Shown one piece after another: positions 14,942 to 54,760 of a stretch of DNA of 64,000 nt. The DNA comes from a bacterium (GTDB lineage: Bacteria; Electryoneota; RPQS01; DYHQ01). The notes under the pieces were generated by a model that was not told the origin of the DNA, ran no database searches, and saw only the letters and a program-made list of their open reading frames with translations. Position 1 is the first letter of the stretch. The number at the start of each line of letters is the position of its first letter. The translations under genes were made by a program, and so were the position numbers. The stretch is taken from NCBI GenBank assembly GCA_030622545.1, contig JAUXGA010000002.1, positions 1-64,000 of the forward strand, read 5' to 3'.

Positions 14942-14975
14942 CTTTTTCGCCGAGCAGGGTCCCCCGACCCTGCCG
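14942..14975 (+). repeat. RAYT-linked palindrome R, copy 1
   Basis: The core GCAGGGTC-CCCC-GACCCTGC is a perfect 8-bp hairpin flanked by CGCCGA on the left and CG on the right. It lies upstream of the RAYT gene in direct orientation with copy 2. Confidence 0.8.
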
Positions 14976-15026
14976 CAATGAAGGGCAATCCGATTACTTT
15001 TGCTGGGCAGGACACATTAACCTTTT

Positions 15027-15056
15027 ATCGCCGAGCAGGGTCCCCTGACCCTGCCG
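15027..15056 (+). repeat. RAYT-linked palindrome R, copy 2
   Basis: Identical to copy 1 except for one loop base (CCCT for CCCC). It ends 11 bases before the RAYT start codon. Confidence 0.8.
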
Positions 15057-15066
15057 ACAAGAAAAA

Positions 15067-15549
15067 ATGCGTCGTCGTCACCAACAATTAGCTTTATCGC
15101 ATAGTATCCATTTCGTAACGACTGTGACTCGAATTCGCGGAAACTGGTTTCTCCACCGAAATATCTGTCGAGAGTTATTGGAATTGTTCGAGTGGTATCG
15201 CGCGAAGTTCTCTGTCGATTGTTTGGGTTATGTTTTAATGCCAGATCATTTACATGCGTTATTATTCCAAGAGGAAGAGGGGGAAATTATTCCTTCGATG
15301 ATAAGGGATTTCAAGAAACTGAGTTCACGGAGAGTTCGTCCTCCGGGCTACAATGGGAATACGCTATGGAGAGATAACTATGATGATGTGCCGGTACCGG
15401 GAATGAACGCAGTGGTAACGAAGTTGGAGTATATGCATCACAATCCTATCCGCCGCAATTTTGTGCAATCCTCTGAAGAATATTTATGGTCAAGTGCGCG
15501 AGATTATGCGGAGATGGAGAGTGGGATTGTTCAGTTAAGGAAGATTTAG
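15067..15549 (+). CDS. REP-associated tyrosine transposase (RAYT)
   Basis: A 160-residue Y1/IS200-like single-strand transposase of the RAYT class, which in other bacteria cuts and joins REP hairpins. The HUH motif appears as MPDHLHALLF (about residues 58-67). The nucleophile tyrosine is in LEYMHHNPIRRNF (about 120-132). The N-terminal strand HSIHFVTTVT and WRDNYDD in the middle also fit. It is bracketed by two direct copies of palindrome R upstream and one inverted copy 12 bases after the stop, the arrangement expected of a RAYT with its own REPs. The catalytic residues look intact, so it may be active. Confidence 0.88.
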   Translation: MRRRHQQLALSHSIHFVTTVTRIRGNWFLHRNICRELLELFEWYRAKFSVDCLGYVLMPDHLHALLFQEEEGEIIPSMIRDFKKLSSRRVRPPGYNGNTLWRDNYDDVPVPGMNAVVTKLEYMHHNPIRRNFVQSSEEYLWSSARDYAEMESGIVQLRKI

Positions 15550-15560
15550 CTGATTGATTC

Positions 15561-15589
15561 CGGCAGGGTCGGGGGACCCTGCTCGGCGA
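15561..15589 (-). repeat. RAYT-linked palindrome R, copy 3 (inverted)
   Basis: CGGCAGGGTC-GGGG-GACCCTGCTCGGCGA is the reverse complement of copies 1 and 2, so the RAYT gene is enclosed by inverted repeats. Confidence 0.8.
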
Positions 15590-15597
15590 GGGAATTC

Positions 15598-15622
15598 CGG
15601 GCGAATCTGGTGATTCGCCGTA
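15598..15622 (+). repeat. Palindromic repeat family E, copy 1
   Basis: The hairpin GGCGAATC-TGGT-GATTCGCC is at 15600-15619. A second copy at 43961-43990 has the same stem and loop TGGG. Confidence 0.7.
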
Positions 15623-15725
15623 GCGAGAGAATGTCGAGCACAGGAAAAGACAAGTTCAAGATAAAAATCATCATTTCATTCAACACACAGCTTCGTAACC
15701 GGAGCTAAGGAAAGGAGAAACGCAT

Positions 15726-15821
15726 TTGCCTTGTGGACGTAAACGGAAACGACATAAAATGTCAACACACAAACGTAAGAAGAGATTACGAAAGAACCGT
15801 CATAAGAAAAAGAATCGGTAG
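15726..15821 (+). CDS. AURKAIP1/COX24 (mS38-like) basic microprotein
   Basis: A 31-residue, extremely basic protein starting with TTG. It begins MPCGRKRKRHKMSTHKRKK and ends in a KNRHKKKNR stretch. This matches the tiny COX24/AURKAIP1-domain proteins of Bacteroidota-like bacteria, homologous to mitochondrial small-subunit protein mS38 and mycobacterial bS22, so it is probably a ribosomal protein. AGGAG at 15713-15717 lies 8 bases before the TTG. An internal ATG at 15759 would give only 20 residues, and the family's N-terminal MP-x-G-x-K-x-K-R-H-K favours the TTG. It is too short for routine gene calling. Confidence 0.85.
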   Translation: MPCGRKRKRHKMSTHKRKKRLRKNRHKKKNR

Positions 15822-15834
15822 ATTTTTTGTAAGG

Positions 15835-15910
15835 TAACCCCCCATATTCCCCCCGCAAACAGGGAGATATCTGACTTTCCCCCCGCTTGCGGGGGGATGA
15901 AGGGGGTCGG
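15835..15910. repeat. Palindromic repeat family G, copy 1
   Basis: C-run/G-run palindrome: CCCCCCGCTTGCGGGGGG at its core, preceded by an AACCCCCC half and followed by GATGAAGGGGGT. Shorter relatives are at 30205-30240 and 54726-54760. It fills the gap between the COX24-like gene and xseA. Confidence 0.65.
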
Positions 15911-19597: not shown

Positions 19598-19625
19598 GGG
19601 TCGGCTGCAAGCAGCCAACACCGCG
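19598..19625 (+). repeat. Palindromic repeat family B
   Basis: GGGTCGGCTGCAAGCAGCC followed by AACACCGCG. The stem is GGCTGC-AA-GCAGCC. Close copies are at 43914 and 50010, and reverse copies at 7585 and 9345. Confidence 0.7.
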
Positions 19626-19647
19626 GTACATTGAAACTGGGAATGAC

Positions 19648-43941: not shown

Positions 43942-43960
43942 ATAAGTTTGATTGATTGTT

Positions 43961-43990
43961 CCGGGCGAATCTGGGGATTCGCCGCGGCGG
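43961..43990 (+). repeat. Palindromic repeat family E, copy 2
   Basis: The hairpin GGCGAATC-TGGG-GATTCGCC is at 43964-43983. Flanks CCGG and GCGGCG resemble copy 1 (15598). Confidence 0.7.
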
Positions 43991-50004: not shown

Positions 50005-50009
50005 GAATA

Positions 50010-50037
50010 GGGTCGGTTGCAAGCAACCAACACCGCA
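50010..50037 (+). repeat. Palindromic repeat family B
   Basis: GGGTCGGTTGCAAGCAACC then AACACCGCA. Compared with 19598, the stem is GGTTGC/GCAACC instead of GGCTGC/GCAGCC: a compensated change on both arms. Confidence 0.7.
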
Positions 50038-50055
50038 AGAAGCAAAACCTCCTAT

Positions 50056-54725: not shown

Positions 54726-54760
54726 ATATCCCCCCGTTTACGGGGGGATATAAGGGGGGT
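54726..54760. repeat. Palindromic repeat family G, copy 3
   Basis: ATATCCCCCCGTTTACGGGG then GGATATAAGGGGGGT; a perfect CCCCCCG/CGGGGGG hairpin between the M23 peptidase and rhomboid genes. Confidence 0.65.

Follow-up and report, generated by a model that had tools for sequence, protein, structure and literature searches.

The RAYT gene and its flanking hairpins

The window, by which we mean the whole 64,000-nt stretch of DNA analysed here, contains an uninterrupted open reading frame of 160 aa on the forward strand (15067-15549) that encodes a RAYT (TnpAREP) protein and is enclosed by short hairpins. Hairpin R, GCAGGGTC-N4-GACCCTGC, has three exact copies in the window (14954-14973, 15035-15054 and 15563-15582); with up to two mismatches allowed, shuffled windows average 0.01 matches, and none of 100 shuffles reached three. 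Oriented by the asymmetric foot CGCCGAG, the first two copies are forward and the third is inverted, and the arrangement described in the initial annotation, an intact RAYT gene with two direct copies of R upstream and one inverted copy downstream, is thus borne out by the reading frame and the hairpin scan. The R elements extend beyond the palindrome, to 14947-14979 (+ strand; 38.5 bits with the covariance model described below), 15028-15060 (+; 38.1 bits), which ends 6 bp 5' of the start codon, and 15557-15589 (-; 41.5 bits). A fourth element, at 15594-15626 (-; 29.6 bits), belongs to another stem family (F2, GGCGAATC-N4-GATTCGCC), lies 4 bp past the downstream R copy and is likewise inverted. 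Away from the RAYT, the window holds a dispersed F2 element at 43958-43990 (-; 41.9 bits) and two probable REP elements of family W, GCGGTGTTGGCTGCTTGCAGCCGACC, at 50006-50038 (-; a weak model score, E = 0.72) and, with 1 mismatch, at 19599-19626 (-). Within the window R itself is confined to the RAYT locus and therefore cannot be counted among the window's dispersed repeats. Two copies of another hairpin type, with C5-6 G runs, occur at 15878-15897 (CCCCCCGCTTGCGGGGGG) and 54726-54751 (CCCCCCGTTTACGGGGGG). Rfam searches with gathering scores as threshold gave no hit in the window or at three loci of relatives.

The encoded protein scores 33.6 bits against Y1_Tnp (cut-off 23) and 84 bits against the RAYT model NF047646, above its curated cut-off of 80, but 21.4 bits against the IS200 transposase model NF033573, whose cut-off is 55. 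The HUH motif (D60-H61-L-H63), the catalytic tyrosine (Tyr122 in Y-M-H-H-N-P) and W141-S-S can be read in the sequence, and the signature is that of class 2, Y---NP, not Y---Q. Among 27 proteins of the clade to which this RAYT belongs, Y122 and P127 are present in all 27 and N126 in 26, and the HUH motif is kept. Among solved structures, E. coli TnpAREP (4er8) gives the best profile match (E 6.8e-10), and an AlphaFold model of the protein (pLDDT 92.7) is nearest in fold to the same structure, which contains bound REP (TM 0.75 and 0.73). This is the one clade RAYT of the whole genome. Two more, distant Y1 genes score below the RAYT cut-off (C1:65483-65929 and C4:132189-132659, the second in two pieces), and the covariance model has no match within the searched loci around them.

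All 11 relatives in which xseA was found (12 were queried) have a LysM gene, a short basic ORF and xseA in place with no RAYT between them, and in an alignment with three relatives HU adjoins the short ORF and the RAYT-hairpin unit is missing. The absence of the unit from these loci indicates a lineage-specific insertion in this genome; the exact ends of the insertion are unreadable because the intergenic DNA has diverged. The short ORF lies 5' of xseA at 15726-15821 in the window, encodes 31 residues rich in Lys and Arg from a TTG start, and has 87-94% identity in the 11 relatives that share the locus; its product may be a tiny ribosome-associated protein.

Hairpin families in the genome and across the RAYT clade

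The genome-wide count proposed in the initial annotation places five exact copies of R in the 2.66-Mb genome, three of them at the RAYT locus, so that R is not absent elsewhere; a longer R pattern with up to three mismatches finds seven more or less convincing places and two doubtful ones in the whole genome. R is one of several stem families of a single architecture. Beside related RAYTs the common build consists of YCG, a 3-bp lower stem (CCG/CGG or, flipped, CGG/CCG), a single bulged base (A or C), an upper stem that is 8 bp long in most cases and a loop of mostly 4 nt, often with AAT behind. We captured this build in a covariance model, R1, made from 26 hand-picked elements of relatives, none of them from this genome. 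Standard pairs fill 96.2% of the pair cells in these elements, and 66 of 286 cells are double-changed, against 18.8 after shuffling; the hand-picking favours paired stems, but not double changes. A simpler pattern for the foot, CGCCGM-N18..40-CGSAA, was set aside in favour of the model: its 445 + 363 matches, against 193 + 189 in the reversed control, amount to an excess that is too noisy for counting, and a scan of the window along the same lines gave mostly noise.

In this genome the model finds at least 80 places at E <=0.01, a count that rests on the scoring of 150 of 1554 candidates. Across the window and 44 stretches around matches (653,927 bases) we collected 101 elements at E <=0.05, which fall by 5' arm into families A (31), D (21), E (15), R (11), F2 (8), H (6, with an arm one base off that of F2), K (3), G (3) and others (3). 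Pairing in these elements is 96.7%, a figure that depends on an alignment fitted to the model, and 193 of 877 cells carry double changes against 56.7 after shuffling. The foot reads CGCC in nearly all 101 elements, the window elements read YCG-CCG-A, and 81 of the 101 lie outside crude ORFs of at least 100 codons. For family W, which the model scores weakly, a search allowing up to three mismatches finds 31 places genome-wide. The 15 E-family elements are 71-74 nt long, with nearly constant arms and a highly variable interior of ~35 nt (L261:4299-4369, L266:205-276, L293:8807-8879 and others). Apart from the gene in the window, the window and the 44 stretches showed neither a RAYT nor a remnant of one next to the abundant families (next best E = 1.2); these families could be relics of lost RAYTs.

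The repeated unit can be read from the 23 singlets of family A. On average the elements are 93% alike, with identical cores in sets of 10 and 6, whereas the 25 nt upstream are 27% alike, which is at chance, and the 25 nt downstream 33% (56% over the first five); base frequencies over all 101 elements agree with this picture. Alike elements between unrelated flanks indicate that what is repeated is one hairpin, about 33-38 nt long. Singlets, with no other model match within 400 bp, make up 76 of the 101 elements. Neighbours within 300 bp are direct in 12 cases, with two direct pairs at the RAYT, and inverted in 1; the five W copies within 100 bp of a model match, read by eye, are all direct, and among neighbours more than 300 bp apart 51 share a strand and 21 do not. 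Element strand clusters by contig, the sum of |plus minus minus| being 54 against a random mean of 27.0, with 0 of 100,000 randomizations as high; elements on contigs C2, C18 and C20, for instance, are nearly all on the plus strand and those on C4 mostly on the minus strand. Replication-strand bias was tried as an explanation and set aside: the clustering follows neither plain GC skew and gene direction in any simple way nor fourfold-site skew, in which C4 and C20 are alike while their element strands are opposite. A different palindrome family, in Caldithrix abyssi, is described as strand-specific, with a possible preference for the leading or lagging strand, in the relevant passages of PMC5317091, and may be related in kind to the REPs reported here.

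Close relatives of the window RAYT, 44-61% identical to it, occur in the single relative from the same family and in 8 of the 11 examined from the same order, frequently as several copies per genome. A quick tree that combined 27 clade proteins with the proteins of the best 65 non-clade loci places the clade on one side of a branch (SH-aLRT 98). A model match (E <=1) lies within 300 bp of the gene at 27 of the 28 clade loci, L065 being the exception with no match; 25 have a forward match upstream, 24 an inverted match downstream and 22 both. Among 16 distant Y1 loci, counted by eye, two (L033 and L039) have a match within 300 bp (E 0.0098 and 0.037). Over the 26 loci compared, relatedness of the RAYTs correlates weakly with similarity of the hairpins (Mantel r 0.26, 4 of 10,000 permutations), an effect that would be consistent with RAYTs and stems evolving together. 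Two clade RAYT genes carry an internal REP hairpin that separates the HUH motif from the Tyr motif and leaves the frame unbroken (L075:1508-1547 and L078:1628-1667); in genome G004, more than 20 direct tandem hairpin units with a 47-bp period stand on both sides of a clade RAYT on contig 3 (L026), and contig 12 holds a tandem direct array with a period of about 107 bp.

The association extends to whole genomes. Among 61 genomes, the 10 with a close RAYT (E < 1e-25) carry 7 to 107 hairpin matches each, whereas 48 of the 51 without one carry none, the other three being G002 (1 match), G018 (10 weak matches) and G007 (25); all these counts are lower bounds, because 116 candidates were scored in each genome. 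Seven of the 10 genomes with a close RAYT contributed sequences to the covariance model; the three that gave none, namely this genome, G009 and G012, have at least 59, 97 and 70 matches. It had been proposed that the link between enzyme and repeat would fail if the hairpin were equally common in relatives that lack the RAYT; hairpins of this build are instead far commoner where a close RAYT is present, with the exception of G007. That genome, from the genus of G009, has only a distant RAYT match beside its 25 hairpins and is given as 97% complete in ~240 contigs. It runs against a simple one-to-one rule of RAYT and hairpin, and a close RAYT may have been lost or left unassembled, or another enzyme may serve its hairpins.

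The GT[AG]G guide and its contact residues

The 5' foot of a canonical REP hairpin has the tetranucleotide GT[AG]G, as described in the relevant parts of PMC6006769, PMC3733652 and PMC2817692, and the E. coli residues placed near the GTAG guide in PMC6006769 and PMC8266576 are W94, Q95, E100, H101 and R104; PMC8266576 also names contacts to the guide in the C-terminal part of the protein. A strict scan within ~200 bp of the gene found a GT[AG]G hairpin at 26 of 65 non-clade loci, at 1 of 28 clade loci (L064) and, in two sets of background stretches, in 1 of 58 and 0 of 22. The build with a CG foot and a bulge, scanned as strictly, showed the converse distribution: it was present at 17 of 28 clade loci and at 3 of the 65 others, but in none of the 58 and none of the 22 background stretches. 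The strict GT[AG]G scan was designed after the result of a looser regular expression was known, which had not discriminated (49 of 65 non-clade loci, 16 of 29 clade loci) and was dropped as too permissive, since it already matched 35 of 48 background stretches.

In a profile alignment with 4er8, the five E. coli residues correspond to positions 101, 102, 107, 108 and 111 of the window RAYT. In the 26 proteins flanked by GT[AG]G hairpins, position 102 is Q (22) or E (4), position 108 R (13) or H (13) and position 111 R (25). In the 27 clade proteins, R prevails at position 102 (16; Q in 3), V at position 108 (24) and P at position 111 (24), and two positions are unchanged, W101 (27) and D107 (26). 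Q and R are mostly retained in the other 39 proteins, although the strict scan saw no GT[AG]G hairpin beside them. Since these proteins keep the residues without the strict tag, the change of residues follows the clade, and as the swap of guide is seen in this one clade it counts as one evolutionary event and not as a repeated correlation. Judged from the alignments, the lineage seems to have swapped the usual hairpin tag together with the enzyme residues that read it. The initial annotation had drawn on the knowledge that RAYTs in other bacteria cut and spread REP hairpins. Because the REPs here are without GT[AG]G, that knowledge transfers only with a changed recognition.

A REPtron and its relation to known systems

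Since hairpins flank 27 of 28 related RAYTs and largely track the clade, the arrangement is a REPtron: the gene lies between REP hairpins, and further copies occur elsewhere in the genome. The hairpin-enclosed RAYT at 14947-15626 is real, and it represents a known kind of arrangement with departures. Enclosed by its own REPs, the RAYT most likely binds the single strand of R, reads the bulge and the YCG foot, cuts, and spreads single hairpins. As a Y1 HUH single-strand DNA nuclease, the protein would bind the folded strand of the R element, and GT[AG]G would be replaced as recognition tag by the bulged base together with the YCG foot and the 3-bp GC lower stem of that foot. A cut beside the hairpin would then be made by Tyr122, and single hairpins of about 33-38 nt would be copied or moved into intergenic single-stranded DNA. 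Cutting of single-stranded hairpin DNA through Tyr122 should follow from homology to TnpAREP and the IS200/IS605 transposases, and the asymmetry of the element in foot, bulge and tail fits recognition of one strand. Binding, cleavage and mobilisation, like the identity of the new guide and the extent to which one RAYT would serve several families, are what we infer from these comparisons. The RAYT had been put forward as the likely source enzyme for at least one repeat family of the window. In favour of this, the protein is a RAYT and the hairpin build accompanies its clade, but R is found in the window at the RAYT locus only and is a minor family genome-wide (11 of 101 elements), so that copy numbers give poor support for activity on R. 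More tentatively, this RAYT lineage of an uncultured candidate phylum may have switched its recognition code to a bulged GC hairpin with a CG foot, read through changed residues of the guide pocket, with a single strand-polarised hairpin of ~33-38 nt as the replicating unit; if so, inverted REPIN doublets would not be needed for RAYT-driven spread.

One alternative, which we regard as unlikely, is that the RAYT and its inverted flanking hairpins form an IS200-type mobile element that moves as a cassette and whose leftover ends are the scattered hairpins. The unit does stand inserted where 11 relatives have none, and clade relatives have several RAYT copies per genome, each between inverted hairpins. 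However, the copies of one genome are not near-identical but very unlike in sequence and stem (in G001 they are 61, 55, 56 and 48% identical to the window RAYT), the IS200 model score of 21 falls far below the cut-off of 55, and single hairpins with unrelated flanks are far more numerous than RAYTs.

Two further explanations would leave the hairpins unprocessed. That they act chiefly as RNA, the upstream one controlling translation of the RAYT and the others serving as terminators or stabilisers of mRNA ends, is improbable, although the stems are GC-rich and the forward hairpin lies close to the gene. With start codons estimated, it is within 30 bp of the start at 20 of 25 clade loci (median 14 bp), against 4 of 25 for the GT[AG]G REPs of other RAYTs (median 61 bp), which hints at autoregulation in the clade. 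Yet the 75 intergenic places that could be classified, by crude ORF calls, are 58 co-directional, 9 convergent and 8 divergent, with no convergent enrichment; Rfam finds no family in the window, and near-identical copies at unrelated sites require a copying mechanism. Still more improbable is a relict, in which an ancestor had an active RAYT here and the hairpins have since become passive repeats. A single clade RAYT faces at least 80 hairpins of several families, and R copies are few, but the catalytic residues and the reading frame are intact, many A-family copies are exact or nearly so, and the locus is specific to the lineage. The REPtron with an enzyme that acts on its own hairpins is the reading that we prefer.

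Related systems differ from this REPtron in several respects. TIRtrons, with their TIRYTs, have long terminal inverted repeats that are unrelated to REPs and often read GGGGWSAS, whereas the flanking repeats here are short hairpins. With the E. coli-type REPtrons (TnpAREP subclass 2.2), as far as these are set out in the parts of PMC6006769 and PMC8266576 concerned, the locus shares a ~160-aa HUH-Tyr protein with DHLH and Y-x-H-x-N-P, a gene between REP hairpins, an irregular stem and many dispersed copies; it differs from them in the absence of the GT[AG]G foot, in the changed positions matching Q95, H101 and R104, in belonging to another phylum and in single direct copies in place of inverted pairs. 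Like REPINs, the hairpins are short REP repeats tied to RAYTs and mostly intergenic. In Pseudomonas, by the account in PMC3116915, 93% of 430 REP doublets are inverted and singlets are regarded as defunct remnants, whereas here the inverted doublet is not the repeated unit (76 of 101 singlets; 12 direct neighbours to 1 inverted). In the A-bulge families the upper stem is directly preceded by CCGA, which would match the atypical CnGA foot assigned to Class 3 TnpAY1 in PMC6006769, but the C-bulge families read CCGC or CGGC, and the Class 3 signature is Y----Q, not the Y---NP (class 2) of the window RAYT. The CGTC-tagged REPs of family 1 likewise have an 8-bp stem and a 4-nt loop; the foot here is CGCC, not CGTC, and CGTC REPs are reported in the relevant part of PMC3733652 without a transposase, whereas these adjoin one. 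Subclass 2.4 RAYTs have in-frame REP insertions comparable to the in-gene REPs of the clade loci L075 and L078, but the description in PMC6006769 gives them REPs tagged with GT[AG]G and the motif NH[IFV]H. Unspecified atypical structures are mentioned there for subclass 2.6 and, taken with the CnGA foot of Class 3, mean that the absence of GT[AG]G is not new in itself. In our literature search, conducted mostly outside subscription journals, neither this hairpin build nor RAYTs in this lineage were found described, and the same holds for a RAYT clade of this kind without GT[AG]G.

GT[AG]G is the shared mark on which REP searches rely, and REPtrons without the tag would therefore be missed. The joint change of the tag and of the residues that contact it makes this clade a natural experiment on the choice of cleavage site by Y1 nucleases, and with near-identical single hairpins between unrelated flanks the need for a doublet in the spread of REPs becomes testable.
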